The position numbers and the translations under genes were made by a program. Below are positions 1 to 21,543 of a stretch of DNA of 27,334 nucleotides, piece after piece (positions within the stretch are counted from its first letter, which is position 1; the number at the start of each line of letters is the position of its first letter). Location: IMG/VR virus record IMGVR_UViG_3300021420_000107, positions 1 through 27,334 of that record; one strand, 5' to 3'. The stretch is from a virus. The notes beneath the pieces are model-generated. The model was not told the origin of the DNA. It searched no databases and was given only the letters and a program-made list of their open reading frames with translations.

Positions 1-930
1 GGTGCCCCACCAGGGGGCCAAAGCGGGGCTCTCAGTGACGCCATGATGTCCAAAGGTGGTGTGACACGGCCACCTGGTTCGGCATTGCCTACCAGTGATT
101 TGATCGCGGCGCGTGGCAATCAGTTATCTAGTGCCGTGCAAAATCTCGAACAAAATACTGATCTTCAGGTGACGCCAGGGTTGCAACATGGGTTGGCCAA
201 TATTGTAGGCCAGCACAGGCTTGCCTATGGCGGCACGTCGCTTGAAAATCCAGATGTTGAGAAGGCACTTACCGATTTCAGTACATTATCGTCTACTGGC
301 CAATTGAGCGGGAAGCAGTATCACGCCCTTAGCGATAGCTGGAAGAACTCAGGCGTGCCCGAATTGCGTAATATGGGCAGTCAGCTTGATAGTGCCATAG
401 ATAGTTCCAATAATGGAAGTGCCTATAATGGGGCATGGCAGAAGTGGCGGGGCGATTGGGCTGACTTTCAGGGCTTGAAAGCGGCAAGCGAAGCAGCCGG
501 CGGAAAAGGGACTACGGGGCCGCTCAGCCCTGGCCCGGTGGTGGGTGCCATGATGAAGAATACCCCCGTCAAGCAGTTGGCCGAAGCCGGGCAAGGCATC
601 CTTGGCACACGGCCCCAACCCTATTCCATGTCGTGGTTGCCCCCAGCGGCGGCAACTGCCGGTGCGGCCGGTGGCCTGTATGCACATAATCTTGAAGCTG
701 GGGTCCTTGGTGCTTTGGCCCCTTATTATATCGATACACCATTGAAAATGATCGGTAAGGGCATCAATGCGATTGCAAAGAGCGCCCCGGCCCAAGCCTA
801 TGCTCAAAATCAAATGTGGCTGCCATCACCGGCTACCTCACTTGATCCTGCTTCTGCAATCAGACTGTTATCTATGCGTGCCCCCGATGCGGCTCAGGCT
901 GCGCTTAATCAGCCACAACAGGGCCAATAG
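1..930 (+). CDS. Virion-associated protein, C-terminal part (5' end outside window)
   Basis: The reading frame is open from base 1, so the methionine at 43 is probably internal and the gene begins upstream. The visible 309 residues are rich in Gly, Ala, Pro, Gln and Asn. There is one hydrophobic Ala/Gly-rich stretch around positions 640-740, and the C-terminus is low-complexity and Gln-rich. No enzyme motif is visible. The place just before tail-fibre genes, the composition and the single hydrophobic patch suit the end of a large structural or DNA-ejection protein; this is inference from context. The last 63 nt overlap, antisense, the end of the small gene at 868-1086. Function is not otherwise recognisable. 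Confidence 0.7.
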   Translation, partial: GAPPGGQSGALSDAMMSKGGVTRPPGSALPTSDLIAARGNQLSSAVQNLEQNTDLQVTPGLQHGLANIVGQHRLAYGGTSLENPDVEKALTDFSTLSSTGQLSGKQYHALSDSWKNSGVPELRNMGSQLDSAIDSSNNGSAYNGAWQKWRGDWADFQGLKAASEAAGGKGTTGPLSPGPVVGAMMKNTPVKQLAEAGQGILGTRPQPYSMSWLPPAAATAGAAGGLYAHNLEAGVLGALAPYYIDTPLKMIGKGINAIAKSAPAQAYAQNQMWLPSPATSLDPASAIRLLSMRAPDAAQAALNQPQQGQ

Positions 931-1086
931 GCAATCCATGGTGAAGGAAATTATAAAAGTCAGGGCATAGGCAACCAGGGATGCAAAGATTACTATGTCA
1001 CCTAATGGTTGATGCGGGGCTAATTGTGTTGTGTAAAGGTGGACGAGCCATACGATGACAACGATTTGCAGGAAGTACCAAAGCAT
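868..1086 (-). CDS. Small two-transmembrane protein, holin-like in form
   Basis: The 72-residue product has two hydrophobic segments (about residues 2-20 and 31-60, the second long), a short polar linker with Pro-His-Gln-Pro, and a basic C-terminus (KRSLSR..THR). Its ATG follows AAAGGAG (1094-1100) by 7 nt, a strong ribosome site, which is why I accept it although it is the only minus-strand gene in the left block. It fills the only stretch between 930 and 1118 with no plus-strand gene. A class II holin-like or other inner-membrane role is possible from topology alone, and a holin-like candidate also exists at 7269-7700. It could be an inserted accessory gene. Confidence 0.62.
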   Translation of the reverse strand: MLWYFLQIVVIVWLVHLYTTQLAPHQPLGDIVIFASLVAYALTFIISFTMDCLLALLWLIKRSLSRIGGTHR

Positions 1087-1093
1087 AATAAAG

Positions 1094-1112
1094 CTCCTTT
1101 AACGGCAGGAGG
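1094..1112. promoter_or_regulatory. Back-to-back Shine-Dalgarno sites of divergent genes, forming an inverted repeat
   Basis: CTCCTTT at 1094-1100 is the minus-strand Shine-Dalgarno of the 868-1086 gene. AGGAGG at 1107-1112 is the plus-strand Shine-Dalgarno of the collar gene. Because they face each other, a plus-strand transcript can pair CTCCT (1094-1098) with AGGAG (1107-1111) around an 8-nt loop. This 5-bp hairpin would mask the ribosome site. Only 31 nt separate the two start codons, so there is little room for two promoters. Confidence 0.7.
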
Positions 1113-1117
1113 TTAAG

Positions 1118-2038
1118 ATACCTCGAAATTCGTCAGGAACGTACACGCTTCCACAGGCACCGTTTACGCCTGGGTCGGTTATTTCTTCTGCTGCCGTCAA
1201 TTCTGATCTTGCCGATATTGCTACCGCCCTGACCGGCTCCCTTGCCGCTAATGGCAGTACACCCATTATTGGTCCCTTAAAGTTCTTTGCCGGTTCGGCA
1301 AGCTTGCCCGGTGTGACGTTTATTGGGGATGCCACTACAGGGCTTTATCTTAGTTCCCCTGGGGTATTGGGCCTCAGTGCAGGGGCGGGCACAGGTGGTG
1401 TATTTCTTGACAGCACTCAAGTAGGCACCGGGAAAAGTGGTAATCAACTTTATTATACGAACGGTGCGTTCCTCAACCCGGTAGGAATGGTCACTGATTT
1501 TGCCGGCGGCACAGCCCCGGCCGGTTGGTATTTGTGTTTTGGGCAAGCCATATCAAGAACTAATTATCCTGAACTCTTTAATACTATTGGCACTACTTAT
1601 GGGATTGGTGATGGCAGCACCACATTCAACTTGCCCGATTGCCGGGGTAGAATTTCGGCAGGTGTGGATAATATGGGGGGTACCGCTGCCAACCGTATTA
1701 CTTCAGCCGGTTCGGGTATAGCCGGTACCACTCTTGGGGCCACAGGCGGCGCTCAAAATCAAATCATTGCTCAGGCAAATCTCCCAAGCGTGAATCTAAG
1801 TTCGGCTGGCTTAGCCGCTGCGTCAGTATCGGTTGTATCAGGTGGCATAAATGGTGGCACGGCTTTAGCAACAGCAAGTGCCGGTGCCGGTTCCATTAAT
1901 GCAAACTTCCAAGCAATTGTTGTCACCACTACGACGACCATCAGCGGCACGGTGCCATTAGGTGGTAGCGGCACAGCGCTTACAACAATGCCCCCCGTGA
2001 TCATGTTCAACAAGATCATCTTCGCCGGAAGGCCATAG
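1118..2038 (+). CDS. Tail fibre protein with phage tail-collar domain, AUA start
   Basis: The 306-residue product opens with PRNSSGTYTLP, a common N-terminus of phage fibre proteins, followed by a segment on the pattern of DIATALTGSLAANG. The tail-collar domain lies at about residues 123-182 (GGTAPAGWYLCFGQ, then a YGIGDGSTTFNLPD..GR motif). The C-terminal third is rich in Ser, Thr and Gly and ends in a typical receptor-side MPPVIMFNKII segment. The frame upstream contains no ATG, GTG or TTG after the stop at 1100-1102. AGGAGG sits 5 nt before an ATA codon that would encode the expected first residue. The first conventional start, TTG at 1304, would remove 62 conserved-looking residues and has no ribosome site. 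I therefore call ATA at 1118 as the start. Confidence 0.85.
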   Translation: MPRNSSGTYTLPQAPFTPGSVISSAAVNSDLADIATALTGSLAANGSTPIIGPLKFFAGSASLPGVTFIGDATTGLYLSSPGVLGLSAGAGTGGVFLDSTQVGTGKSGNQLYYTNGAFLNPVGMVTDFAGGTAPAGWYLCFGQAISRTNYPELFNTIGTTYGIGDGSTTFNLPDCRGRISAGVDNMGGTAANRITSAGSGIAGTTLGATGGAQNQIIAQANLPSVNLSSAGLAAASVSVVSGGINGGTALATASAGAGSINANFQAIVVTTTTTISGTVPLGGSGTALTTMPPVIMFNKIIFAGRP

Positions 2039-2044
2039 AGGAGG
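2038..2044 (+). promoter_or_regulatory. Shine-Dalgarno GAGGAGG deciding an AUC start
   Basis: GAGGAGG ends 5 nt before the ATC at 2050. This is the same spacing as for the ATA at 1118, the TTG at 9765 and the ATG at 26497. It argues that translation starts at 2050, not at the GTG at 2074, which lies 29 nt downstream of the site. Confidence 0.75.
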
Positions 2045-2049
2045 CTGAT

Positions 2050-2490
2050 ATCCCTTTCAATCCAAGTTCAGGGGTGTACACTCCACCGAATGGCGCTGAA
2101 AATGCTTTCCCCGGCGAAATCATTGCGTCGGCTACATGGAATTCTATTTTTACCGATATTTCAAACGCCCTTACTCAGCTTGGGCAGCAACAAATTGTTT
2201 ACAATCCACGTATTGTGAATTCGGCCGGTACAATCAATGTTGGTGTCAGTGATCGTCTCATCTACATAGAAGCGGCCGTACCAAATATTTACCTGCCCCC
2301 CAGCGCTACCAAGACAAACCCGGTCACAATCATAGGCAATGCTTCGGGCATTTTCAGCACTACAAATGCTACTTTGACGCCCAATGGCAGTGAGAAGATT
2401 GATGGACAATCAGCCAACCCGGTGCTAACTCAGGATTATCAGTCAATCACTCTTCTTCCACTTTCAACAGGTGGCTGGCTTGTACAATAA
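2050..2490 (+). CDS. Short tail-fibre/tip-like structural protein, AUC start
   Basis: The 146-residue product begins PFNPSSGVYTPPNGAENAFPG, then ..SATWNSIFTDISNAL, a pattern I associate with short fibre-associated proteins next to collar genes. The remainder is beta-rich without catalytic motifs. No ATG, GTG or TTG lies in frame between the previous gene's stop and 2074. The ATC at 2050 follows GAGGAGG by 5 nt and supplies the expected residue before the PFNPS motif. If GTG 2074 were used, this N-terminal motif would be lost. The stop is 12 nt after the collar gene's stop plus its ribosome site, so the two are surely co-transcribed; the 3' end overlaps the next gene by 11 nt. Confidence 0.8.
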   Translation: MPFNPSSGVYTPPNGAENAFPGEIIASATWNSIFTDISNALTQLGQQQIVYNPRIVNSAGTINVGVSDRLIYIEAAVPNIYLPPSATKTNPVTIIGNASGIFSTTNATLTPNGSEKIDGQSANPVLTQDYQSITLLPLSTGGWLVQ

Positions 2491-4501
2491 GATTAAACTC
2501 TTTCTAATCATATGGCTGTTTGCACTTTTGCCGAGTGCTGCTTTTGCTCAAGCAAATTGCAGCGGGGTGTTTCCGGCAAATACAGTTTGTGGGAGTGTTG
2601 CGGGTGGTTTTCCTAAGGCCATCCCCCTTTCAAATTTTACTATCCCTCAGACGATAGCCAAAGTCACGCATCAATGGCTCGATTCGTACACGGCCGGCAC
2701 CGGCCTTTTCACGCAATCGCAGCCCGGCTTTCCCGATATTGCCGGCCCGTTTTCGATTGCCGGGAATGTATTTACGACAATCTCGGCCAATCAAAACAAT
2801 TGGACGCCATCCGGCACCGGAACGTATAGCACGGCGAGCACGGTCTATATTAGCGGCGGCGCGGCGGATCGCACCATCACCGGCCTGACAGGCGGACTTG
2901 CGGGCCGCATCGTCGTGCTGGTCAATAACGGCACGACCAACAATATTATTCTCGCGAATCTTTCCGGCTCATCGAGCGCAGCAAATCAGTTCTCCCTCGG
3001 CCAGAACGTCTATCTGACACCCGGCGCAAGTCAGGCGTTGCAGTACGATAGCACTAATTCGTTGTGGCGAACGAACGGTAGTGCAAGTGCTGGCATCATC
3101 GCAGCGGTGACGCCAACGGTCGGCTTTACTGTTGGCGATCTTATTTCCAGCAATTCGTCAAATCAGGCGGCTGATAGCGGCTTGGCTATTGGAACCGCAG
3201 GCACCGTTGCGGTCACGTCTCAACTTGCCTCGTTGCCACTGGCCGGTGCGAGCGGTGGGACTGGCATCAATAACGGATCGAGCACGATCACCGTTGCGGC
3301 CTCGCTAACGACAACCGGGGCGGGTGCTCCGACACTTGCTTTCCCGGCATCGTCATTCACTTATACGTTCCAGGGATCGTCCGACACAATCCTTGGCCGC
3401 GCCACAACCGACACGCTGACGAACAAGACACTTGCGGCTACTTCCGATGTTCTGGGCCAAGTAACGACAACGCTTGGCTCAGATGCTACTGGCGACATTT
3501 ATTATCGAAGCGGCGGCGCGGTCCTAACTCGCCTCGGTATTGGCAGTACCGGGCAAGTTCTAACTGTGGCAAGTGGTCTGCCTAGCTGGGCCACAGCCGC
3601 TTCCGGCACCTTGACGGCCAATAGCACGGCGACAAGCGGTTTCACCGCCGGGCAGTTTGTCTATTCCGATGGATCGCTAGCTCAAGCCTCCGCAGGCATC
3701 ACGACGCCCGGCACAGGGCAATTGCTGCTCGCGCTCGGCACGATCACGACAAATCTCAAGGCGCTCAATACGACCGCAACATGGAATGCGTCAGGCACAA
3801 CCTTCGACGCGCCATGGTTCATGAACATAACGAACACGGCCAGCCATACGCTAAGCAAATACGTCGATATTCAATTGGGAGGAACGACGCAGTTCGCACT
3901 TGGCATATCGCAATCACTCCCGGCAATGTGGCTAGGCTCTGCAACTCCGAGTTCTACGAATTATGCCTTTGAAGAGGATGGCTCCAACCTTTATGCTAAT
4001 ACACCCGGCGCCTTTCAGGTATTTATGACCAATTCGATTGGCCTGTTGGATGTAGGAACTTTATTTACCTCTATAGGCAATACCGCTGAATTTTGTTGGT
4101 CTGGCAGCGCCGATGCGACAGGAGCCTGTGATACGGCGTTCTACAGAAACGCTGCCGGTGTGGTCGAGATCGACAATGGAACGCACGGTACCTTCCGCGA
4201 AGCAAAGTTACGCAGTGTCGTGTACGGCGGTTCGGCTCCAACTGGCTCAGGCTCATGTTCAATTACAACTCAAGTGGGTGGCAATACCTCTGGAAAATTC
4301 ACTGCGAGCGGTGCCTGTGTTGCCGGAACTGTCATCCTCACTTTTGCCTTTACCGCTCCTAACGGATGGGCATGCTTCACAAACGATCAAACAACGCCAA
4401 CTGATATCATTAGTCAGACCGCGACCACCACTACGACGGCCACACTGAGTGGGACAATGGCTAATAATGACGTAGTGCAGTTCTCATGCGCCGCTTATTA
4501 A
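2480..4501 (+). CDS. Large tail-fibre-like protein with N-terminal signal peptide
   Basis: With TTG at 2480 (AGGTGG 5 nt upstream) the product is about 673 residues; GTG at 2471 is an alternative in the same frame. It begins with a textbook Sec signal: Lys, a hydrophobic core FLIIWLFALLPSAAFA and a cleavage site at AFA/QA. A CSGVFPANTVCG motif follows. The body is Gly/Ser/Thr/Ala-rich with fibre-type sequence such as GASGGTGINNGSSTITV and TTDTLTNKTL, as in many phage fibres. The C-terminal region has several Cys residues and a possible carbohydrate-binding-like beta fold, unproven. A signal peptide on a protein lying among virion genes is odd, since tails assemble in the cytoplasm. It may be a secreted adhesin-like accessory protein. 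Confidence 0.75.
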   Translation: MYNKIKLFLIIWLFALLPSAAFAQANCSGVFPANTVCGSVAGGFPKAIPLSNFTIPQTIAKVTHQWLDSYTAGTGLFTQSQPGFPDIAGPFSIAGNVFTTISANQNNWTPSGTGTYSTASTVYISGGAADRTITGLTGGLAGRIVVLVNNGTTNNIILANLSGSSSAANQFSLGQNVYLTPGASQALQYDSTNSLWRTNGSASAGIIAAVTPTVGFTVGDLISSNSSNQAADSGLAIGTAGTVAVTSQLASLPLAGASGGTGINNGSSTITVAASLTTTGAGAPTLAFPASSFTYTFQGSSDTILGRATTDTLTNKTLAATSDVLGQVTTTLGSDATGDIYYRSGGAVLTRLGIGSTGQVLTVASGLPSWATAASGTLTANSTATSGFTAGQFVYSDGSLAQASAGITTPGTGQLLLALGTITTNLKALNTTATWNASGTTFDAPWFMNITNTASHTLSKYVDIQLGGTTQFALGISQSLPAMWLGSATPSSTNYAFEEDGSNLYANTPGAFQVFMTNSIGLLDVGTLFTSIGNTAEFCWSGSADATGACDTAFYRNAAGVVEIDNGTHGTFREAKLRSVVYGGSAPTGSGSCSITTQVGGNTSGKFTASGACVAGTVILTFAFTAPNGWACFTNDQTTPTDIISQTATTTTTATLSGTMANNDVVQFSCAAY

Positions 4502-10695: not shown

Positions 10696-11691
10696 TTATT
10701 TATCGCCTAGTAAATCAAAACCCGCTTGCCTGATATTAGCCGGGGTACTTTCGGCTTTGCAATACAATTTAAGAATATCACGCGGGGATTTTTTGTGGGG
10801 GTATTCTTCTGGCTTGATATGTTTAAGCTCGGTTGGCTCATTCAATTTTAGTTCTACCCCAAAGACCTCAAGACCAAGATCGCGGCAGGCAGCAAGGATA
10901 CGATTTTTATTGGCTTGCCATCCCGTAGCATCCTCACGGGGCGTTTCGATAATCAGCTTGACTTGATCACCACGTCGTAACTCACAATTATTGACTATAT
11001 CTTTTGCATCGTGCACACTCAGGGTCAGCTTGCGTGGGCAATCAAAGTGTAGATCGGTTTCTTGGTTGTTTTTGATCAATAGCACCCGTGGCGTGAAGCA
11101 GTCACCAAACCTTACGTGATAAGGTGCCCCTACGTAGGCCACAGGGCCGCACTGCTGAGGTACATGCACGTCCCCTGCATACACCCTAGCTGGTTTCAAA
11201 GCCTCAATGGGTGAGGCTTGTAAGCCCGTTAAACGTGCCCCGGTTTCAGCTACGGCCCCATCGAACGTATTATGAGCTAGAAACATGTTGGGTTTATGTG
11301 GCATCTCCTTGCAAGCACTATCAAAAATAGCTTGGCTGGCACAGTGAGGCATGAAAACTGTATCCAGCTTTTTGTTGTAGGTTGGCTGGATGATAAAACG
11401 AAGCCCTTCAATACAATTCAGGAATTTGAAGAATGGGCTATTGGGCGAAGTGCCATCATGATTGCCCCTGAGAATATAAATAGGGGGCTCTAAGCCGGTC
11501 AATTCATCAATTATCTTATTTACTAAGGTTGAGGAGTGACGGTCTTTGTTCTCCGTCATATCACCTAAGAAAAAAGTAGCATCGATGTTATACTTTTCTT
11601 GTTGCTTTATTATCCATTTGAAAAGGCCAAACCTGTAAGCGTCACGAGGGCGGTCAGACAGATGCAGATCGGTTGAAATCAGAAAATTCAT
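10696..11691 (-). CDS. SbcD/gp47-type recombination nuclease subunit
   Basis: The 331-residue protein is a calcineurin-type metallophosphoesterase of the Mre11/SbcD/T4 gp47 group. The metal-binding blocks are in order: D8-L-H10, GDMTEN (43-48), GNHD (76-79), H140 in AHNTF and GDVH (173-176). It would pair with the SbcC/gp46-like ATPase (13148-14986) to resect DNA ends for recombination-dependent replication, as gp46/gp47 do in T4. It begins with a 4-nt overlap with the resolvase gene and is the last gene of the minus-strand block; no clear terminator hairpin is visible in the 5-nt convergent gap. Confidence 0.9.
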   Translation of the reverse strand: MNFLISTDLHLSDRPRDAYRFGLFKWIIKQQEKYNIDATFFLGDMTENKDRHSSTLVNKIIDELTGLEPPIYILRGNHDGTSPNSPFFKFLNCIEGLRFIIQPTYNKKLDTVFMPHCASQAIFDSACKEMPHKPNMFLAHNTFDGAVAETGARLTGLQASPIEALKPARVYAGDVHVPQQCGPVAYVGAPYHVRFGDCFTPRVLLIKNNQETDLHFDCPRKLTLSVHDAKDIVNNCELRRGDQVKLIIETPREDATGWQANKNRILAACRDLGLEVFGVELKLNEPTELKHIKPEEYPHKKSPRDILKLYCKAESTPANIRQAGFDLLGDK

Positions 11692-12128
11692 CCTAACTCA
11701 CAATTTGCTTCGGCGTAGGCGAGCAAACATACCGCATCGGCTTCGTGTTCGTTATTGTTTGTGTACCCAAATTTACGTGATGCTTCAATCATCCCATCCT
11801 TGGGGGCTTTGCCATGCCCAGTGGCAAACTTTTTGATGGTTGGGGTTGCCACGTCAAGAACTGCAATGTTTGCGTTGGTGGCGCAAGCTTCAATAATACC
11901 GGCTATTCCCCACAGTGATCGTGTTGCATCGCGGCCACGGGCAAATGGTGTTTCGTAGACTGCCACGTCAAATTGATGCTTATGAAAGATGGAAGGTAAG
12001 AGCTTTGCCAATTCACCTAATCTGTGTGATCTGATCCCCTGAAGTTCTATCGTTTTGGCAATAATGCCTTTTTTGTCCCGCCACGCCCAAGCGAAGTTTT
12101 TGCCAAGATCGAATGCAATTATCTTCAT
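11688..12128 (-). CDS. RuvC-like Holliday junction resolvase
   Basis: The 146-residue protein has the RNase H/RuvC layout: an N-terminal strand with FDLGKN (Asp7), VAVYETPFARG (Glu59), a basic TPTIKKFATGHGKAPKD block of RuvC type, and a final NEHEADAVCLLAYA helix with Asp131 and acidic partners. These acidic residues would bind two metals and cut four-way junctions. It is placed between a recombinase and a nuclease gene, which fits resolving recombination intermediates before packaging. It overlaps both neighbours by 4 nt. Confidence 0.88.
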   Translation of the reverse strand: MKIIAFDLGKNFAWAWRDKKGIIAKTIELQGIRSHRLGELAKLLPSIFHKHQFDVAVYETPFARGRDATRSLWGIAGIIEACATNANIAVLDVATPTIKKFATGHGKAPKDGMIEASRKFGYTNNNEHEADAVCLLAYAEANCELG

Positions 12129-13147
12129 TGGTATTTAGCTCTCTTGGGCAGGAAACTGGTCTCAATTTCACGCCAAGCTTGCTTGACGGCTGCTGATACG
12201 GTTTCACGTTCTTTATTGTACTCAGCCACATCCATTTCATCAATGCCTTTAAGGTAATCCTTGACTTGAGTGGGGTTGATTCCTGCATCTTTCAAACGCC
12301 CAATTTCCTTGAGCCATTCAACACTGGCCCCCAGGTCTTCAACTCCGTATCCAAAAATAAATTGGAAGTCACAGTCACGAAATGGCAGGCTCACTTTATT
12401 CTTTTTGCATTTGGCTTTGATGGTTACGCCATACGGCCGCTTGACCTTGCTGATCTCTCGCCTGAGAGTTTCAATATGAGCCAGCCAAAGAATCTGGGAG
12501 GCATAAAAATCCAAAGCACGGCCACCGGAGCGCTTATGCTTCTCACCAAACATGGCCCCAATGTTATCCCGTACTTGCGAAATAACAAGGAGAAGTACCC
12601 TGCTTTGTTCAATGCGGTGTGCTGTCTTCCTGAAGAATATGCTCAGCAGCTTAGCCTTGGCAGCGCCAAAAGTTCCCTTCTCAATATCACGTTCCATTTC
12701 AGCGTCATCTGAAAGGGCATCAAGACTGTCAACCACATAAATACCGGGTGTCTCGGTTTTCAGCCGGGCTTCCAAGAATGCATCGAAGTCATGGGAAAAT
12801 TGTTCAACCGTAATCAGCGGTTCGTCTTTGTCTCCAAAATCAACTTTGTCAAGATCAAGCCCCATGGCTTTGGCGTAGCCCTGGTCAAAGGCAGCCTCGG
12901 TGTCACGGTAGGCCGCTACACCGTTAGGGTAGATTTGACTGAAGTTGATAAGGGCTTCAGTGGCCAATGCGGTTTTTGCCGTCGACTTATCCCCGACAAT
13001 GTTAACTATTCTGCCAAGTGGGAAGCCGCCACCAAGTACACAATCCAATAATGTACATCCGCTTGAAACGAAACTGTAGTCTGTTTTATCTTCAACAAAA
13101 TAGGCATTTTTGGATTCGGTTAATTTTGCACGCTCTCGTTTAGACAT
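12125..13147 (-). CDS. uvsX: UvsX/RecA-family recombinase
   Basis: The 340-residue protein has a RecA core: GGGFPLGRIVNIVGDKSTAKT with a Walker A at 52-59, an aromatic-acidic YRDTEAAFD block, Walker B in GIYVVDSLDAL, an ISQVRDN sensor-type segment and a GGRALDFYAS block typical of RecA and UvsX. The C-terminal region contains KEIGRLKDAG. Length and the absence of RecA's usual long C-terminal domain agree with phage UvsX. It would carry out strand invasion for recombination-dependent replication, with the gp32-like SSB and the UvsY-like protein encoded in the same block. Confidence 0.88.
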   Translation of the reverse strand: MSKRERAKLTESKNAYFVEDKTDYSFVSSGCTLLDCVLGGGFPLGRIVNIVGDKSTAKTALATEALINFSQIYPNGVAAYRDTEAAFDQGYAKAMGLDLDKVDFGDKDEPLITVEQFSHDFDAFLEARLKTETPGIYVVDSLDALSDDAEMERDIEKGTFGAAKAKLLSIFFRKTAHRIEQSRVLLLVISQVRDNIGAMFGEKHKRSGGRALDFYASQILWLAHIETLRREISKVKRPYGVTIKAKCKKNKVSLPFRDCDFQFIFGYGVEDLGASVEWLKEIGRLKDAGINPTQVKDYLKGIDEMDVAEYNKERETVSAAVKQAWREIETSFLPKRAKYQ

Positions 13148-14986
13148 TTACACCCTCTCAAAATAGGAACCGTCTGAACTTTTCACGATGGGCAGCGTTG
13201 CCGTATAGGGGTAATCTGTCAAGTTGTGTTCTACTACGAATATACGTTTTTTTGAATCTATGGCCCGTTGATGTAGAGTTTCGGCCAGATCAAGCATTCC
13301 TTCTTGGCTTAGATGCCGTGACGGTTCGTCGAAGAACTCAATAGTGCTTCGCAACCCCGCGTTTTCCATAATCAGGTTGGCTAGGCCCAAGTCACCTGCC
13401 AGCCGTAACCGTTGGGTTTCACCGCCCGACCATGCCTCAAACTTGACTGGCTTTTCATTGCCTGAGGCTTGTATGGCTACCGTAAACCCTTTGGTAATGC
13501 CACCTGATTTGTTCTCACGTTCCACGTCCAATTCTACACGCCACGTCAGCAAGCCCAGACTGGCAAGATTGTTATTGATCTCAAGTTCCAATTGTCTGAG
13601 GGTTTCTTCAATAACAAACAAGCGTATCTTCTTAAAACCACCTATCCAATAATTGACGGTTAGATTATCCTTGGCTAGTTGATCTATCTCTTCGGTGGTT
13701 TGTTTAATGGCCTTTTTTAGTAGGGCTTTTTGTGCTTGTTTTTCTTCAATCAAGATACTATATGGATTGGGTTTTTTCTGTTCATTAGCAATGTTGGTGC
13801 GGAGCTGCCTCAAGTCAGCTTCACACCGTTCTGATTTAGATGACAGCTTGTTCCTCTCAATCCTAAAATCCTCTAAATTCTGTTCTATGGTTTCTAAATC
13901 TTTCTGGTTTGATTTGATGGCAGTGACGATGTTATCCTTATTGGTAGATGCCCCCTCAAAAGCTTCAATACAGTCTTCTAGTTCTTTTGAAATTGACTGA
14001 TATTGTTTTTTGTACTTTTGTTTTTCTGTTGTTAGGTGAACAGCATCTACTTCCTGCAAACAGGTAGGGCATTCAGCGCCGACACCTTCAAGGCGCTTAC
14101 TGGTAGCGGTTACAGCACTTAACCTGTTTTCTATGACTGATTTTTGAGTTCGTATTTCTGAGTGGTTGGCCTCAAACTTATCCTTCTCATTCAGTAACGT
14201 ATCTATTTTGGCAATGAGTTTGTCTCGTCTTTTTTCAAGCCCATCAATTGCTAATTTGGTTTCGTTTAGGACCTTCCCCTGAACTTTTATAGAAGTTTGT
14301 ATTTCTGTTATTTGCCCAGTCATGGAAGCCATCAAGCTACGTTGATCCTCAGAGAACTTAATTTCCTTTTCAGCTAACTGCCTTAGGTCATCTGTAATTG
14401 TTTCAAGCTGACCATTTTGCCGCGCAGCATTCTTTTCAACGGCTGATTTTTCAATAAGTATTTCTTCGGCCAATTCAGAGGCTCTTTTGCTCTTTTCAAG
14501 CCAGAAATCAAGTTCCATTATTTGTGAAAATAGGGTCAGTTTGTCACTGGGTGTCAGATCAAAGAATGCTTGCCCAAACTGTGGGGCCATCACGGCATAG
14601 GTGAAAGCTTCAGGCCCAATACGTAGGGCTACTTGTAACTCAGTCTGATCCACTGGTTGCCCGTTCAGCATGAGGCTGTTGGGGCTTTGAGTACGGGTGA
14701 CGGTAAGGTGCTGGCCCCCAATAAGTTGCTGTACGGTCACGGCACAGCCTTTGGCACCCCAATTGATCACGTCAGTAGCTTTTAGACCGCGTGTGGTACG
14801 CCCGTAATTGCACCAATAAATGGCTTCTAAAAGAGTTGATTTGCCAACACCGTTAGGACCAAGTTCGGGGTTGTCAAGATTAACGCCGGTTATGGCATAC
14901 AGCCCCGGTTCGGTTGGAAATTCGAAACTGTGTTTTCCCCTGAACGACCTGAAATCTTCCAGTTCAATTTTGATGATGTCAAACAC
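13148..14986 (-). CDS. SbcC/gp46-type SMC-like recombination ATPase
   Basis: The 612-residue product has GPNGVGKSTLLEAIYW (Walker A, about 43-50), a coiled-coil centre split by a zinc-hook motif C-P-T-C at 306-309, the ABC signature AWSGGETQRLRLA, Walker B with TIEFFDEPS and the terminal IFVVEHN H-loop. That is the complete Rad50/SbcC/T4 gp46 plan, with short coils compared with bacterial SbcC. The start is GTG at 14986. The partner nuclease lies 1.5 kb further along, separated by the uvsX-like and RuvC-like genes, whereas 46 and 47 are near neighbours in T4. Function: resection of double-strand ends. Confidence 0.9.
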   Translation of the reverse strand: MFDIIKIELEDFRSFRGKHSFEFPTEPGLYAITGVNLDNPELGPNGVGKSTLLEAIYWCNYGRTTRGLKATDVINWGAKGCAVTVQQLIGGQHLTVTRTQSPNSLMLNGQPVDQTELQVALRIGPEAFTYAVMAPQFGQAFFDLTPSDKLTLFSQIMELDFWLEKSKRASELAEEILIEKSAVEKNAARQNGQLETITDDLRQLAEKEIKFSEDQRSLMASMTGQITEIQTSIKVQGKVLNETKLAIDGLEKRRDKLIAKIDTLLNEKDKFEANHSEIRTQKSVIENRLSAVTATSKRLEGVGAECPTCLQEVDAVHLTTEKQKYKKQYQSISKELEDCIEAFEGASTNKDNIVTAIKSNQKDLETIEQNLEDFRIERNKLSSKSERCEADLRQLRTNIANEQKKPNPYSILIEEKQAQKALLKKAIKQTTEEIDQLAKDNLTVNYWIGGFKKIRLFVIEETLRQLELEINNNLASLGLLTWRVELDVERENKSGGITKGFTVAIQASGNEKPVKFEAWSGGETQRLRLAGDLGLANLIMENAGLRSTIEFFDEPSRHLSQEGMLDLAETLHQRAIDSKKRIFVVEHNLTDYPYTATLPIVKSSDGSYFERV

Positions 14987-14992
14987 TTACAC

Positions 14993-15259
14993 TTACCCCC
15001 ATCGTGGGGCACGCCGTACCGCTTCCTGGTAATTGGCTTTGCAGGTGGCCAAGAAATCACTTTCACCCATCCCAACATCAACCGCTGTGACGGCCGCCAG
15101 ATGGGTGAAGGTTACAATAGATATACGTGAGAACTTTTCTTGGCCTATTTCTTTGTTCAGGTCACGGTGAGTGGCCCAAACCCCCCATCCTTCTTTTAGT
15201 AAAGCCTGATGAATTGAAAATAGCTCAGCAGGAATTACTTCTGACGTGTTTTCGGTCAT
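14993..15259 (-). CDS. Small phage protein, unknown function
   Basis: An 88-residue soluble protein from the ATG at 15259 (MTENTSEVIPAELFSIHQAL). The frame is open further upstream, but starting earlier would run deeper into the preceding gene. It has two likely helices flanking a TFTHLAAVTAVDVG segment and ends in ANYQEAVRRAPRWG. No known motif. It lies 6 nt before the SbcC-like gene and overlaps the previous gene by 35 nt, so it is part of the recombination transcript; an accessory role there is only inference. Confidence 0.7.
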   Translation of the reverse strand: MTENTSEVIPAELFSIHQALLKEGWGVWATHRDLNKEIGQEKFSRISIVTFTHLAAVTAVDVGMGESDFLATCKANYQEAVRRAPRWG

Positions 15260-15446
15260 ATATAGCCTGCAAAAAGCATTGATGGCTTTTATAACCCAAC
15301 CGTTGAATGAGCCACCACTGCCGCTCGAATTTCTCATAAGGTATAGCGTCATTCATAATGGCACTGAGCGGGCGGTTATCAACCCTAACAGGGTCTATGC
15401 CGCCGCGCTTCAGCATTTCAGCCCTGCGGTCAGTCGTCATCCTCAT
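15225..15446 (-). CDS. Small phage protein, unknown function
   Basis: The 73-residue product begins at 15446 (or at the second in-frame ATG, 15440, inside the last codons of the SSB gene). It is basic and polar, with RRAEMLKRGGIDPVRVDN, then a Trp-rich helix FERQWWLIQRLGYKS. There is no membrane segment and I recognise no family. The start overlaps the acidic tail codons of the SSB gene, implying translational coupling. It might bind DNA or the SSB, but the sequence does not show that. Confidence 0.65.
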   Translation of the reverse strand: MRMTTDRRAEMLKRGGIDPVRVDNRPLSAIMNDAIPYEKFERQWWLIQRLGYKSHQCFLQAIYDRKHVRSNSC

Positions 15447-16485
15447 CGGTGCTTTTAGAACGGCGTGCAGCTAACCGTTCACGGATACTTTGGCGTGGCT
15501 TTTCGTCTTGTTCTTCATCTTCATCTCTGGCAGGCTTTGCCTTTTTGCGCGGTTTTTCATCCGCCTCGTCCGGCTCATCCTCGTCCTTCAGTTGAGTACG
15601 GGCACGACGTGGTTTTTCATCCGGTTCATCTTCATCGTCATCTTTGGTGGCCCGACGTTTTGGTTTCTCTTCAGAGTCATCATCCTCATCGGCAACAGGA
15701 CGGCGCTTTGGTTTTGTACCTTCGTCATCTTCATCACGCAATTTTTTGCGTGGCTTTTCGTCATTGTCATCTTTGGTACGAACCTGCCCGTCAAAGGCCG
15801 AGGCAATCTGATCGGCACTGTAGAATTGCAGGCAGTCAGGCACCGGGTTTTCCTTCACAAATTCAAGCCATTCATCCTGAGTGCCTTGATCTTCATGAAG
15901 CGGCGATTCATCAAGAAGCTTCATGCGAGACGCCGGGTATTTGGTGCCAAGCCCTGAGCCTTCCTTGTAAAACCGAAGATCATGTCCATTATCAGGATCA
16001 TCAGGATAGATGACCTCCTTGGTGTCTTCATCAAGGCAGAGGTTGATAAAATCCTTGTCAACACTGAAAGGAATATCCCACAGTTGTGGGCCTTCATCCT
16101 CTTCATTACGATCAATGACCCAAACCAGTACCCGCTGGCGCGGTGATAATGCCTTGGCGGTTTCGTCATCCCCTTCGCGTTGAGCCTGCTTGCGGGCTTC
16201 GGCCAACGGATCGGCTTCGTCGTTCATTTTTGAAAGAGAAAGGTACGATTGGTTATCTGCACCAATGCCGTAATTCACCCAAATATCGTAACCGTAATGC
16301 TTGGGCTTTTCCCATGTTGCTGGCAGGATGCGCACCAAGTTTTTTCCGTCGCGCACCTTGTAGCGCTTGAATTCGGGCTTTACAAAGCTGTCATAGCCAC
16401 CGCCCCGCATATTGGCGCGGGCTTTTACGTCCTCCTTGGAACGGTGTTCGTAATGAAACGATCTTTTACTCTCACTTTTCGCCAC
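15430..16485 (-). CDS. gp32-like single-stranded DNA-binding protein with long mixed-charge tail
   Basis: The start is GTG at 16485, 6 nt after AAAGGAG (16492-16498); the upstream TTG at 16509 lacks a ribosome site. The 351-residue product has a gp32-type OB-fold core: FKRYKVRDGKNLVRILPA, YDIWVNYGIG, RVLVWVIDR, LWDIPFSVDKDF and KYPASRMKLL. The zinc-binding Cys/His set of T4 gp32 is absent. From about residue 236 to the end it becomes a polyampholyte with six KP(R/K)-type basic motifs between Asp/Glu runs, ending DEDDD. T4 gp32 also has an acidic tail, which binds partner proteins, but much shorter and without alternating basic blocks. It lies in the recombination block. Confidence 0.75.
   Translation of the reverse strand: MAKSESKRSFHYEHRSKEDVKARANMRGGGYDSFVKPEFKRYKVRDGKNLVRILPATWEKPKHYGYDIWVNYGIGADNQSYLSLSKMNDEADPLAEARKQAQREGDDETAKALSPRQRVLVWVIDRNEEDEGPQLWDIPFSVDKDFINLCLDEDTKEVIYPDDPDNGHDLRFYKEGSGLGTKYPASRMKLLDESPLHEDQGTQDEWLEFVKENPVPDCLQFYSADQIASAFDGQVRTKDDNDEKPRKKLRDEDDEGTKPKRRPVADEDDDSEEKPKRRATKDDDEDEPDEKPRRARTQLKDEDEPDEADEKPRKKAKPARDEDEEQDEKPRQSIRERLAARRSKSTDEDDD
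15433..15783 (-). repeat. Degenerate coding repeats of the SSB tail (about six acidic-KPRR units)
   Basis: The 3' third of the SSB gene consists of imperfect units of GAT/GAG-rich codons followed by AAA-CCG/CCA-CGC/AAA-type codons, giving EKPRKK, TKPKRR, EKPKRR, EKPRRA, EKPRKK and EKPRQS. Unit length varies from roughly 16 to 20 codons. The sequence is repetitive enough for slippage or recombination to alter copy number. Long spurious frames on the opposite strand arise from this composition. Confidence 0.7.
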
Positions 16486-16633
16486 TGTTGGCTCCTTTGA
16501 GTTTGTCAACTAGCCGATTAACGAAACCGTCCTTTGCTTTAAAGTAGGACCCAATAATTGCTTTGCATGTGAGCCAAAGGATCAATGCTATGACAGCAAT
16601 CGGTAAAATGTACTGCCACAAGGCATCACTCAC
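16472..16633 (-). CDS. 53-residue single-pass membrane protein
   Basis: GTG at 16633 follows GGAG by 5 nt. The product begins MSDALWQY, has one strong membrane helix (ILPIAVIALILWLTCKAIIG) and a basic amphipathic tail (KAKDGFVNRLVDKLKGANSGEK). A longer in-frame reading to 16723 exists but would lie inside the upstream gene and has no ribosome site. It overlaps the end of the UvsY-like gene and the start of the SSB gene. A membrane peptide between two DNA-binding genes is unexpected: it could tether replication to the membrane, or be an unrelated early accessory gene. Confidence 0.68.
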   Translation of the reverse strand: MSDALWQYILPIAVIALILWLTCKAIIGSYFKAKDGFVNRLVDKLKGANSGEK

Positions 16634-17114
16634 GTTTGCTCCGTGCAGTTGCAATGCGTTCCCTGCCCATTCTATACGTCGCATGGTTAGTTTGCCCAGA
16701 GCCACGGGCCGATGATTCTTCAAAATAGTTGGCTGTATAGAGAGAGCAAAGATCTCGAAGCATGTAGGCCCTGGATTGGAAAGCTTCTTTCAGTGCCAAA
16801 AACAAGTCAGCCTGTTCTTTGGCGTCAAAGAACTTCTTGATCGCTGCTTCATGCTTTTTGTCGGTTTGTACGGCATTTTTGACCATGGCTTCGGTATACT
16901 TTTCACCCGCTTTGTCAAAAACACGACGCATGTCACTATCGAGTCTAGCGTCTGTACTGGCAAGCTGCTCCTTGAGCATGTCACGTTCAGCAGTGGCTTG
17001 AGCAAACGCTTCGCTGATTTTGAAAAATAGCATAGGCTGTTCCATGAGTTCTTGATCGAGCCCATGTTTGTCTATTTTCAGATAATTCTTGAATTCTTCA
17101 ATGTCAACGGTCAT
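16626..17114 (-). CDS. Helical protein, possible UvsY-like recombination mediator
   Basis: The 162-residue protein is almost wholly alpha-helical and charged: an N-terminal DIEEFKNYLKID segment, long helices with AERDMLKEQLASTDARLDSDMR, AVQTDKKHEAAIKKFFDAKEQ and ALKEAFQSRAYMLRDLCSLY, then a basic tail. The layout of conserved acidic-basic helices, ending in a segment of SR-x-M-L type, resembles UvsY-group proteins that load UvsX onto SSB-covered DNA. UvsX, SSB, gp46- and gp47-like genes surround it. The assignment rests on pattern plus context, not on a clear motif. It overlaps the clamp-loader gene by 4 nt. Confidence 0.5.
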   Translation of the reverse strand: MTVDIEEFKNYLKIDKHGLDQELMEQPMLFFKISEAFAQATAERDMLKEQLASTDARLDSDMRRVFDKAGEKYTEAMVKNAVQTDKKHEAAIKKFFDAKEQADLFLALKEAFQSRAYMLRDLCSLYTANYFEESSARGSGQTNHATYRMGRERIATARSKRE

Positions 17115-18061
17115 GCTTTATCCAGGTTGAGTGCCATGCCTATCGAGTGCAGGAGTGGCGCAAGTTTATCTATTGGTTGATAGGGGGCAGAAAAACATTC
17201 CAGTAGCCCAAGAAGCGGAATAGCCTTATCGTTGCTTTTGGTATTTGTCAAAACGGCACTTAGATAATTTACAATTATTATCCTGATGCTTTCAGTATCG
17301 GTTCCCTCAAGTGCCTTTACATATTTCATGGCTTCGGCCCAGGTACGGCCACGTTGCCCAAGCAAGAATTTGCACAGGTCACTTACTTCTTTAGACTGCC
17401 CGGCGCTACGCATAACAATACGCGCCTCACCGGCTGTTTCGGCATAGGAACAGGCCTCCAAAAATACTAAAGCCTGACGTGGTGAGCCTGAAGCTTCCTC
17501 AACAATGGCTTCCAATATTGCATCTGGTGTTTCAAGTTTCTCAGCCTCAGCTACGCGCAGTAATAGCTCAAGCAGGTCTTCCTCAGAAACAGGTTTCAGA
17601 TCGTAGCGTAGGCATCGGGTCAGTATTGTTTTCGGTATTTTGCCCGGATTAGTAGAACAGATCATCCAGTAAACGTGAGTGGGTGGTTCCTCGACTGGCT
17701 TAAGGAGGACGTCCCATGCCGCGCCTGACAAACGATGTGCTTCGTCCAAAATGACAGCTTTGATTGGTGAAGTGCCAATAGCCCGGTACAACGTGTGTTT
17801 GATTACTTCGCGCATGGCATCTACGCCGGTAGTATCGGCGGCAGCTATTTCTTCTATATTGGCTGCCGTAGCTTCGTTTTTGGCGAAGGAATTTGCTAAT
17901 ATTCTAGCAAGAGTGGTCTTTCCGGTCCCTGATGGCCCCGTGAACAAGAAAGTTTTGGCACGGCTGTCTTTGACTACGCGCTTGAGGCCCTTGACCACAT
18001 GATCTTGGCCTACCACTTCGTCGAAGATAGTTGGCCTATACTTTGTATGAAGACTGGTCAT
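17111..18061 (-). CDS. DNA polymerase clamp loader ATPase
   Basis: The 316-residue AAA+ protein starts KYRPTIFDEVVGQ, with Walker A GPSGTGKTT (42-50), a DTTGVDAMREV block, Walker B VILDEAHRL (104-112), sensor 1 ICSTNP and the arginine finger as TRC (149-151; SRC in most relatives). The DnaX zinc-binding Cys set is missing, as in T4 gp44 and archaeal RFC small subunits. It would form the ring that loads the beta-clamp-like protein at 21544-22587 for the polymerase. Only one loader subunit is seen in the window. Confidence 0.9.
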   Translation of the reverse strand: MTSLHTKYRPTIFDEVVGQDHVVKGLKRVVKDSRAKTFLFTGPSGTGKTTLARILANSFAKNEATAANIEEIAAADTTGVDAMREVIKHTLYRAIGTSPIKAVILDEAHRLSGAAWDVLLKPVEEPPTHVYWMICSTNPGKIPKTILTRCLRYDLKPVSEEDLLELLLRVAEAEKLETPDAILEAIVEEASGSPRQALVFLEACSYAETAGEARIVMRSAGQSKEVSDLCKFLLGQRGRTWAEAMKYVKALEGTDTESIRIIIVNYLSAVLTNTKSNDKAIPLLGLLECFSAPYQPIDKLAPLLHSIGMALNLDKA

Positions 18062-18124
18062 TTAGATATATCTTTGTTATCTCTATAAGTGAGCTAAGAT
18101 GGGTGGGGGCCGTCTGTACATTTA

Positions 18125-20830
18125 TTATTTCTTAATGTCTTTGTGAGACCAAAACTTTCCAATTTCTTCCATGCCAAACCAGTGCTTTCCTATAGAACAA
18201 GTAACTGATAACGGTACATTAATGAAGTCATAGTTTGGAGTTAGCATAATTCTATATATATCTTTAATGGCTTTTTCAATAATTCTATCGTTGTTTTGTA
18301 CCTGAAATGAGAGATCATCATGAATGTTCAAAATTGGATGTAAGTACCATTTTTTCTCAACCGTCGCTAACTCTGAAAGATCATTCATTGAACGACAAAC
18401 TATATCGCATGCCACGCTTTGAATTGGATCGTTAATTGCCTGATTGCGGGTCATAGGGTAGTGACGCCTACGTCCGGTAGGACTTTCAGCATAACCATCT
18501 TCATAATATTTCTTCATCAATTTATCTTGCCATTCAGCAAGGCCATAGAACGTTTTCCAAAATTCACGCATCAAAACATCAATTTCCTCAACTGGCATAT
18601 CAAGGTAGCCAGCAATAGATGAATTCTGTGCCCCAAATATTGCCGGAAAGACTAATTTGTTCTTTATCTTTGACCTAAACTTCTTCATTACGTCTTTATC
18701 TTGGATGCACTTCTTGCCCCCTATAATGGCCGGGTACTGGTGGGCTGTTTTGATTGCCCATTCCATATGAATATCGTAATCCTCCCACAGTGCTTTTACC
18801 AACACTTTGTCCTGGGAACACATCGCGGCTGTGCAGGCTTCCAATTGGCCGTAGTCAAAGGCCAGCAAAAGATGCCCATCCTTAGCAGCTATTTGATTGC
18901 GCACCCACGCATCAGTGCGTTGAGGATAATTCTGCATATTTGGATCATCGGAACTTGTGCGTCCGGTTTCTGCAAAAGTTGTATTGAAATTACAATGAAT
19001 TGCTCCATCCGGGTAAATCATTTCTCCTTTGCCAAGTTCTAGGCAATCTACATAGGTGCTTTTCAGTTTGGTGCGGTTGCGGAGGTCAATAATTTTTCCA
19101 GCTAGGGGGTGGTCAATCTGCGCAAGAACACCTTTATCAACTGAGTATCGTATTTCAGGCCCTTTATCGAAACGCTTTTTGCTATCGGATGATTTGTTGA
19201 AATTATGTGCTTCGTGACGTTCCTGTTTGATCTGAACTTCGGGCCTTTTCAGGTAATCCTTGAAAATTGTGATAGCATGATCGTTTGAGAGTGGATTGAA
19301 CTCTTTGTGATCCTGTACAAAGGCTTTCACCACTTTCAATTCGGCAATATTGGCCTCTAATACTTTGATCTGAGGGCCAAGCTTCTTTTGGGCTTTCTTA
19401 ACCTCGGCCTGATCCACATTAACGCCGAGGTATTGCATCATGGCTACTGAGGTTTGGCGTGGGCGTGCCTCAAGGTAGGCTTTATAGAGGCCAAACTTCT
19501 TCAGCAGTCTGATCTGCCAATGATGTAACCGCAGCGTTATTTTGGTATCGACGCCATTATAGAGTAACGTTTCGCCAAGATCAGATTTGGACATATCCTT
19601 CTTATTTAGCTTGAACAGCGATTTGTAGGTGAAGCCAAAATGTTGTTTGCAGAGGAAATCTAATGCCTGATAGGCGGCGCGGCGGTCGTTTTCATCTGAA
19701 CTTCGTGACTTGCCACGACGCTCATCGAGAAAATGAGCCTGCATCTGCGTGCAGTGCCACGCATGGTGATTGATTATGTGTTTGCCAAAATACCAGATAA
19801 ACCATTCGAGTTCGAATGGGACATTGTGAGCTATCTTTACAGTGTCATCCTTTAGAATGCTTTCAAGCAATATTCGTATTTTCTCTTTAATGTGCGCGGG
19901 CCATTTAGAATGTGGATGATCCAAGGCAAATGCAAAATTGGTATCCTCAAAACTGAGGGCACAGGTCATGATGGCTGCGTCGGTTTTGTACGGGCGTAGC
20001 CCTTTGGTTTCTATATCTACCGCTTTGAGGGGTGCCTTACGGGCTTCATATAAAAGATCAATAATAGCTTGATGGTGGCTTTGTTTGGAACCGTCAAAAC
20101 ATTGTATTCCTGATCTAATCTCTGCCTCAGTATCAATGTGGGGCAATTCAAGATCGGCCACCAGTTCAAATGCTTTTCTGATGTCCATCCTGAAACAATG
20201 GCCCATCATTGAATTGAGTGGCTTCCTTTTGTTCTTGGCTATTCTCAGAATAAATGATGGATGATAAGTAGGGAGGAACCAGCAATGATGTTCACCAAAT
20301 TTAACGGCAAAGAGCCTGCCACGCATTCCCTGCAAATCAGATGAACCAAGGATAGCCTGTAACGGTACCGCGCCTAATCCCACAATCAGCTTGGGCTTTG
20401 CCTGTTCTATGTATTTCGTACGTCTTGGGCGGCAACATTCAATTTCTTGCCATTGTGGTGTTCTATTGCCCGGCGGTCGGCAGTTTATTATATTATCAAA
20501 CGAACATTCATCTTGCCAATCCTCAGGAATACATTCGCGCAATAATGAACCTGACGGCCCGGTAAGAGGCCTGCCTGTGTTCTCATCTTCATCACGCCCC
20601 GGTGCTTCCGCAAGGAAATAGATTTGCCCCCCTTTGCTTAGGGTTGGTTCCATCAACGGCGTGACTATGCCAGAAGCTTTATTGAGGGGACAGCCAGCAC
20701 AGCCTAGACGTGCCCATACGGCAGGATTCCGCCTTATTGTGGTAGGTAGGGTGCCCGCTAAAAAACCCTTACCAGTGACCGCCTCCGTGGCTTTGGCACG
20801 GGGGGTACTTTTGGTAAAAAAGAATGACAT
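18125..20830 (-). CDS. DNA polymerase I family enzyme with N-terminal uracil-DNA glycosylase domain
   Basis: The 901-residue protein joins two modules. Residues 40-215 look like a family-4 (iron-sulphur) UDG: Cys44/47, LAEAPGRDED, GRPLTGPSG, INCRPPGNR with Cys117, a Cys pair at 132-133 and the TYHPSFILR motif. From about 265 comes a PolA enzyme: 3'-5' exonuclease blocks VDIETKGL (Asp272, Glu274), AHNVPFELEWF and YNGVDTKI (Asp428); polymerase motif A AFDYGQLE (Asp659); motif B ending KLVFPAIFGAQ; motif C IHDDL (837-839, HDD where Pol I has HDE). ATG at 20830 is preferred to the TTG six bases upstream. All key residues seem intact, so this is probably the replicase. Confidence 0.9.
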   Translation of the reverse strand: MSFFFTKSTPRAKATEAVTGKGFLAGTLPTTIRRNPAVWARLGCAGCPLNKASGIVTPLMEPTLSKGGQIYFLAEAPGRDEDENTGRPLTGPSGSLLRECIPEDWQDECSFDNIINCRPPGNRTPQWQEIECCRPRRTKYIEQAKPKLIVGLGAVPLQAILGSSDLQGMRGRLFAVKFGEHHCWFLPTYHPSFILRIAKNKRKPLNSMMGHCFRMDIRKAFELVADLELPHIDTEAEIRSGIQCFDGSKQSHHQAIIDLLYEARKAPLKAVDIETKGLRPYKTDAAIMTCALSFEDTNFAFALDHPHSKWPAHIKEKIRILLESILKDDTVKIAHNVPFELEWFIWYFGKHIINHHAWHCTQMQAHFLDERRGKSRSSDENDRRAAYQALDFLCKQHFGFTYKSLFKLNKKDMSKSDLGETLLYNGVDTKITLRLHHWQIRLLKKFGLYKAYLEARPRQTSVAMMQYLGVNVDQAEVKKAQKKLGPQIKVLEANIAELKVVKAFVQDHKEFNPLSNDHAITIFKDYLKRPEVQIKQERHEAHNFNKSSDSKKRFDKGPEIRYSVDKGVLAQIDHPLAGKIIDLRNRTKLKSTYVDCLELGKGEMIYPDGAIHCNFNTTFAETGRTSSDDPNMQNYPQRTDAWVRNQIAAKDGHLLLAFDYGQLEACTAAMCSQDKVLVKALWEDYDIHMEWAIKTAHQYPAIIGGKKCIQDKDVMKKFRSKIKNKLVFPAIFGAQNSSIAGYLDMPVEEIDVLMREFWKTFYGLAEWQDKLMKKYYEDGYAESPTGRRRHYPMTRNQAINDPIQSVACDIVCRSMNDLSELATVEKKWYLHPILNIHDDLSFQVQNNDRIIEKAIKDIYRIMLTPNYDFINVPLSVTCSIGKHWFGMEEIGKFWSHKDIKK

Positions 20831-20832
20831 CT

Positions 20833-21123
20833 TCAAGCCACCGGGCTTGAAGCTTCATTCACTACTCGAATTACATGAGGGTCCCTATTAAGCAGGGCTA
20901 TCGAAATTTTATTGAAGGCATAAAGGCCAATCTTATGATCGTCGGTGCCAAAAGCTGTGGCTATTCTTTTGAACGATAGATGTGTTTCTTTTCTGGCAAT
21001 GTAACAGGCAATATGACGTGCAAGGCTGATCTCATAGACCCGGCATGATGTATCGCGGGTTGAGCCTTGAGGGACACGGGCGGCTGCTTCTACGGCAGCT
21101 ATGATTTGATCTATTGAGCGCAT
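20833..21123 (-). CDS. Stand-alone DnaA domain IV-like DNA-binding protein
   Basis: This 96-residue protein resembles the C-terminal helix-turn-helix domain of DnaA: RVYEISLARHIACYIARKETHLSFKRIATAFG followed by DDHKIGLYAFNKI. That corresponds to the host pattern of Arg-Q-IAMYL, LT-LS-x-IG, FGGRDHTTVLHA. The initiator's ATPase domains are absent and the product is full length in itself. It might bind DnaA boxes in host or phage DNA, either to start phage replication or to compete with host DnaA. It overlaps the winged-helix gene by 13 nt and ends 2 nt before the polymerase start, so it belongs to the same transcript. Confidence 0.75.
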   Translation of the reverse strand: MRSIDQIIAAVEAAARVPQGSTRDTSCRVYEISLARHIACYIARKETHLSFKRIATAFGTDDHKIGLYAFNKISIALLNRDPHVIRVVNEASSPVA

Positions 21124-21542
21124 CCTGCTGCATTAGCTTGAGTAAAGGCTTCAGGTGACGTGCCGAATGGCACGTTACTCAATGCCACTAATTTGGTGTG
21201 GTTGACTTCATCTATACGCCAGCCCCTACCCCAAATTGTTTCTATATAGATATCATAGCGTTTAATGATTGGCCGAAGTTTACAGATAAAAACATCAATA
21301 ATTTTTGGATCAGGCCATTCATCTTCGTGGCCAATACGGGCAGCGTAAATATTTCGCCATAAGAATTCTTTGGTCAAAACCATTTTTGGGTGCTTAAGAA
21401 AAACGCTTAAAACCAATGCATATGTTGGGGGAAGCCGCAGGGGCCAAGATTCAGCAACTCGTTGTAATTCTTTCACCATCTCAGAAATATGAAATTCCAA
21501 TTCTGCAACGCGGGTCCGTAATCGCTCTATTTCACTATCCAT
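21111..21542 (-). CDS. OmpR/PhoB/CtrA-type winged-helix DNA-binding protein without receiver domain
   Basis: From the ATG at 21542 (GGGTGA a few nt upstream; GTG at 21551 also possible) the product has 143 residues. An N-terminal coiled coil (EIERLRTRVAELEFHIS) replaces the usual receiver domain. It leads to a Trans_reg_C fold: LPPTYALVLSVFLKHPKMVLTKEFLW, a recognition segment around IIDVFICKLRPIIKRYD and the hallmark YIETIWGRGWRI wing. Family members bind promoters in tandem; in Alphaproteobacteria the master regulator CtrA has this domain. The coil may give dimerisation without phosphorylation, making it constitutively active. It is a likely regulator of phage or host genes. Confidence 0.82.
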   Translation of the reverse strand: MDSEIERLRTRVAELEFHISEMVKELQRVAESWPLRLPPTYALVLSVFLKHPKMVLTKEFLWRNIYAARIGHEDEWPDPKIIDVFICKLRPIIKRYDIYIETIWGRGWRIDEVNHTKLVALSNVPFGTSPEAFTQANAAGCAQ

Positions 21543-21543
21543 T

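Follow-up and report, generated by a model that had tools for sequence, protein, structure and literature searches.

Putative AUH start codons behind strong Shine-Dalgarno sequences recur in tail and DNA polymerase genes of an uncultured phage clade

Introduction

Two adjacent tail genes, which we call gene A and gene B, lie in a 27,334-nucleotide stretch of DNA from an uncultured virus (IMG/VR record IMGVR_UViG_3300021420_000107; hereafter the window). Each appears to begin at an AUH codon (AUA, AUC, or AUU) placed 5 nt behind a strong Shine-Dalgarno (SD) sequence. This locus raises the question of whether these codons are authentic starts and, if so, whether they are selected for a low rate of initiation or are only tolerated. 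To our knowledge, few AUH starts have been proven experimentally in bacteria.

Results

The letters at positions 2038 to 2052 agree with the initial annotation and comprise a GAGGAGG SD sequence (2038 to 2044, plus strand; predicted anti-SD pairing of -12.0 kcal/mol), a 5-nt spacer (CTGAT, 2045 to 2049), and the ATC codon of gene B (2050 to 2052, plus strand). In the reading frame of gene B, this ATC is followed by PFNPSSGVYTPP, and the N-terminal codons behind the site encode PFNPSSGVYTPPNGAENAF. Gene B (2050 to 2490, plus strand) encodes a tail-associated protein of 146 aa that is 67 to 70% identical to gene B of G002, a 76-kb contig that is the next relative of the window phage. Its first ~40 residues are similar to the gene A N terminus (E value of 5e-5), and we found no match to gene B in Pfam or among named phages. 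The preceding in-frame stop ends at 1968, and the frame contains no ATG, GTG, or TTG between this stop and GTG 2074 (2074 to 2076, plus strand), the nearest ordinary start. As first annotated, this GTG is residue 9 and lies 29 nt from the SD sequence; its use would delete the conserved PFNPSSG.

Comparison with relatives locates the start of gene B. The seven codons from AUC to GTG 2074 encode PFNPSSG or PFNPSTG (pN/pS of 0.34, over few sites), unlike the 21 nt 5' of AUC, which are only 24% identical. The G002 contig has ATG exactly at the position of the window's ATC, and another clade member, G012, has ATG at the equivalent position, mostly with weaker SD sequences than those of the AUH sites. 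Relatives with ATG had been proposed as grounds for rejecting the start; such relatives exist for gene B, and rather than refuting the start they fix its position, since their ATG occupies the same alignment column. From these alignments, AUC at 2050 is almost certainly the real gene B start. AUH is not conserved at gene B, where a single AUH lineage is compared with relatives carrying ATG.

The sequence support for AUA as the start of gene A is better still. Gene A (1118 to 2038, plus strand) encodes a tail-collar fiber protein of 306 aa with a collar domain (PF07484; 81.2 bits against a Pfam cut-off of 24) and matches to PHROG tail families. Its ATA codon (1118 to 1120, plus strand) follows AGGAGG (1107 to 1112, plus strand; predicted pairing of -11.5 kcal/mol) and the 5-nt spacer TTAAG. 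An in-frame TAA just 5' (1100 to 1102, plus strand) rules out an upstream start, and the first ordinary in-frame start after ATA is TTG 1304. When IMG/VR was scanned for the gene A motif preceded by ATH, irrespective of any SD, nine contigs had gene A with an AUH start: ATA in G001, a longer record of the window phage, and ATT in G002 (behind AGGAGG and 5 nt), G003 (93 kb), five contigs of the one further species represented by G005 to G008, and the distant contig G004. In every case, an in-frame stop lies 4 to 6 codons 5' with no ordinary start between. The motif is preceded by ATG in at least 120 other viral contigs of IMG/VR, and ATG is found at the AUH column in G012 and G022. A search of genome contigs with the gene A N terminus found no relatives, and IMG/VR pattern scans in which ATH precedes a PFNP or PxN motif yielded, outside the window phage, only matches that were internal or due to chance.

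In pairwise comparisons of the 38 gene A codons that follow AUH, pS ranged from 0.63 to 0.88 and pN/pS from 0.14 to 0.32, reflecting synonymous saturation and purifying selection. These substitution patterns indicate that the codons after AUH of genes A and B are translated. In four diverged clade lineages the gene A start codon is ATA, ATT, ATT, and ATT, and AUH is thus kept between species. Because the third base stays A, T, T, T despite saturated synonymous sites and with AUG one change away, the comparison argues that AUG is probably disfavored at the gene A start.

Several features of the neighborhood of genes A and B were also observed. A gene for a small membrane-like protein with an M-x-WY-x-LQ N terminus (868 to 1086, minus strand; weak match to the membrane protein family phrog_2203) lies head-to-head with gene A, and this arrangement occurs in G001, G002, G003, G005, and G012 with start codons only ~11 to 31 nt apart. 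With overlapping transcripts unavoidable, this gene could exert antisense control on gene A. We rejected constraint from the head-to-head gene as the cause of the gene A AUH codon, since G012 has this gene and yet starts gene A at ATG. The gene B initiation site AGGAGGCTGATATC (2038 to 2052) matches the G003 gene A site AGGAGGCTGATATT (L134:2712-2728) over 13 bases, and because the two genes share an N-terminal motif, a start region may have been exchanged between them. The next gene (2471 to 4501, plus strand) also lacks ATG and would start at TTG 2480 behind AGGTGG and 5 nt, yielding a signal-peptide protein. In G002, the homologous gene has its ATG in alignment with ATT 2492 of the window; we dropped this ATT as a third non-AUG start because TTG 2480 has AGGTGG 5 nt upstream.

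A third gene with AUH starts encodes a DNA polymerase (18125 to 20830, minus strand). The product joins a uracil-DNA-glycosylase-superfamily domain to an exonuclease and a family A polymerase in one fusion protein (UDG-PolA; PF03167, PF01612, and PF00476). Its start is ATG in the window (20830 to 20828), ATC in G002, ATT in G003, and ATT in G009, all in one alignment column, where the other clade members have ATG or GTG; the polymerase of G022 is interrupted by the contig end. All AUH starts of this gene have an in-frame stop 2 to 6 codons 5'. On the polymerase tree, AUH is scattered and requires three changes, which are forced by supported branches. Best matches among named-phage polymerases reached only ~30 to 33% identity, and no isolate or host could be linked to the clade. 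The polymerase belongs to a minus-strand replication block (10696 to 23491) that also encodes a RecA-like protein, an SbcCD-like pair (SMC/AAA and metallophosphoesterase proteins), a clamp loader, a DNA methylase, and a protein with a weak sliding-clamp match. The initial annotation had suggested a low-rate start that sets fiber stoichiometry. Because the clade polymerase gene starts with AUC or AUU in three lineages, fiber stoichiometry is not the whole story, and the low-rate part of the proposal is what we retain.

Strong SD sequences accompany all nine AUH sites of these three genes, with predicted pairing, assuming an E. coli-type anti-SD in the host, of -8.5 to -12.0 kcal/mol (median, -10.2). 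The median was -4.4 kcal/mol at 16 orthologous AUG or GUG starts (P = 5e-5 against the AUH sites) and -5.5 kcal/mol for 263 additional clade AUG starts (P = 1.6e-5), in tests that take no account of relatedness among sites. Among ATG-starting gene A homologues of the wider family, the median was -6.6 kcal/mol, and two canonical orthologues reached about -8.4 kcal/mol. Homology alone identified seven of the nine sites, whereas the SD sequences first drew attention to the two in the window. The clearest contrast is at the gene A site of G002 (TAGGAGGCTAGTATT) and G012 (TAGGACTCCACGATG), which are sister phages according to the tree; SD strength and start codon differ together over equal lengths. 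Since all nine AUH sites pair strongly relative to orthologous AUG and GUG sites, weak codons and strong SD sequences trade off. Some observations run the other way: besides the two canonical orthologues near -8.4 kcal/mol, 17% of ordinary clade AUG starts have an SD as strong as that of the weakest AUH site.

The main rival to selection for AUH is that these codons are merely tolerated, with a strong SD making loss of AUG nearly neutral so that codons drift between AUG and AUH. Drift would account well for the scattered polymerase cases, where AUH comes and goes on the tree, and strong SD sequences at AUH sites are equally expected if only genes with a strong SD can lose AUG. This explanation fits poorly with the constancy of AUH at gene A in four lineages despite saturated synonymous sites. 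Nor does it fit the lack of AUH in the other 100 orthogroups of the clade, given that about one in six of the other AUG starts has an SD of comparable strength. We consider drift unlikely, while regarding it as the alternative that deserves most attention.

We surveyed the 103 orthogroups of the clade for supported AUH starts, for which the interval from -10 to +6 codons had to be free of ordinary starts; this filter misses AUH starts near an ordinary start codon, in clade and control alike. Only genes A and B and the polymerase qualified. In all three, the AUH codon lies at the column of the orthologues' ordinary start, and a usable ordinary start is lacking; in genes A and B, the sequence after AUH is translated as judged by pN/pS. 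Most genes in the clade start at AUG. The identical procedure, applied to a control set of 172 further phage loci that total 1.44 Mb and hold 174 orthogroups with 622 canonical starts, returned no convincing AUH start; two nominal ATA/ATT cases had weak SD sequences, lay 43 codons into an open frame, and were discarded.

This restriction to three genes bears on the second proposal of the initial annotation, that infection relaxes start recognition, for instance through an altered IF3 balance, making AUH nearly as good as AUG. Recurrence of AUH across several genes of the clade is what such relaxation predicts. General relaxation is not supported by the survey, with AUH in 3 of 103 orthogroups, and it would make a strong SD unnecessary. 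Searches of six clade contigs for an IF3 homologue and of G001 for tRNA genes were negative, which leaves a phage-encoded change of start recognition unsupported. Relaxed recognition is very improbable as the explanation for these starts.

Alternatives that deny the AUH codons a role as starts fare worse. The nearest ordinary starts, GTG 2074 for gene B and TTG 1304 for gene A, could be the true ones, with the upstream frame untranslated; conserved protein sequence under purifying selection lies 5' of both codons and ATG occupies the AUH column in orthologues, making this scarcely credible. It is just as hard to believe that AUH is an ordinary internal isoleucine codon in a frame entered by frameshifting or from a start further 5'. 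All three AUH triplets do encode isoleucine, and the gene B frame is open for 27 codons 5'. Against this, the AUH codons of gene A and the polymerase have an in-frame stop 2 to 6 codons 5', an opposite-strand gene adjoins gene A on its 5' side, and orthologues show ATG or GTG at the same column. We also rejected programmed frameshifting out of gene A into gene B, as gene A is closed by a stop codon of its own and gene B of relatives begins with ATG.

A sequencing or assembly error that changed ATG to ATA or ATC, conceivable in metagenomic contigs of which G002, G003, and G009 are single records, has a negligible chance of explaining three affected genes in several lineages, given that both window codons recur in G001 and that ATT occurs in five contigs from five data sets; here the initial annotation, which had thought error unlikely, holds. 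The G001 record (78,457 bp) has 1 mismatch to the window across 27,334 bp, at position 7129 (T in the window, G in G001); with so little difference between them, the two records may not represent independent samples.

A genome scan for further AGGAGG-N5-ATH starts had also been suggested. In the window, this motif occurs at just the gene A and gene B sites, with the count itself being weak evidence (expected number, 0.48; 2 reached in 8 of 100 shuffles). Because the motif count is weak, our finding rests on homology.

Discussion

We conclude that AUC 2050 and AUA 1118 are almost certainly authentic starts and that, judging from the sequences compared, AUH with a strong SD is likely interchangeable with AUG or GUG with a weaker SD as a means of reaching a modest translation rate. 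The AUH starts most likely represent initiation tuned to a low rate, like that of infC, pcnB, and ccpN. Among the explanations first offered, a deliberate low-rate start fits best with a gene A AUH codon that occurs in four lineages, is one base away from AUG, and always follows a strong SD.

We propose a model in which the strong SD 5 nt away would position the 30S subunit and the initiator tRNA would accept the near-cognate AUH codon at a reduced rate. Products needed in few copies, namely the tail-collar fiber, the second fiber-like protein, and the DNA polymerase, would thereby be kept scarce. In other clade members, AUG or GUG with a weaker SD would give a similar modest rate. We infer the reduced rate at AUH from two sources: Staphylococcus aureus AUA and AUU starts with extended SD sequences yield ~10% of AUG output in poor medium (PMC13009471), and IF3 represses non-canonical starts (PMC5472188). 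The reduced rate may also have a selective value and may come under the control of host IF3.

Attenuation by AUH starts is already known in bacteria from infC, pcnB, ccpN, and cvfC1. The S. aureus genes cvfC1 (AUU), ccpN (AUA), and infC (AUA) resemble the phage genes in having AUH at a conserved position behind a strong or extended SD, kept across species and with a proposed limit on initiation (PMC13009471). These are cellular genes with measured output, whereas the phage tail and polymerase genes are known from sequence and have AUG counterparts in sister phages. Escherichia coli infC and pcnB likewise start at AUU, which is described as attenuating expression (PMC5472188; cited in PMC13009471). 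E. coli infC differs in being autoregulated by its own product, IF3, a gene for which we found none in the phage contigs searched. The GUC start of Streptomyces sigR is similar in that a non-canonical start keeps one protein scarce relative to its partner, but the codon differs from AUH, and IF3 dependence has been shown for sigR (PMC5472188). We found no phage precedent for AUH starts in the literature searched, which took in few subscription papers. What appears to be new is that AUH starts recur within one uncultured phage clade, in genes for structure as well as for replication, and that SD strength and start codon are naturally exchanged there.

Together with one distant contig, this clade provides nine evolutionarily supported AUH cases. 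They fall in three genes whose counterparts in sister phages naturally start at AUG, which allows testing of whether output stays constant as SD strength and codon are exchanged, and of whether AUH is under selection or only tolerated. Gene finders limited to ATG, GTG, and TTG miss such starts, so that these tail and polymerase genes would lose up to ~60 residues or be given a wrong start. More tentatively, and with somewhat less than even confidence, we suggest that AUA, AUC, and AUU may constitute a selected, recurrently invented attenuator in structural and replication genes of these phages, in which SD and start codon would co-evolve as exchangeable elements and through which the genes may respond to host IF3.
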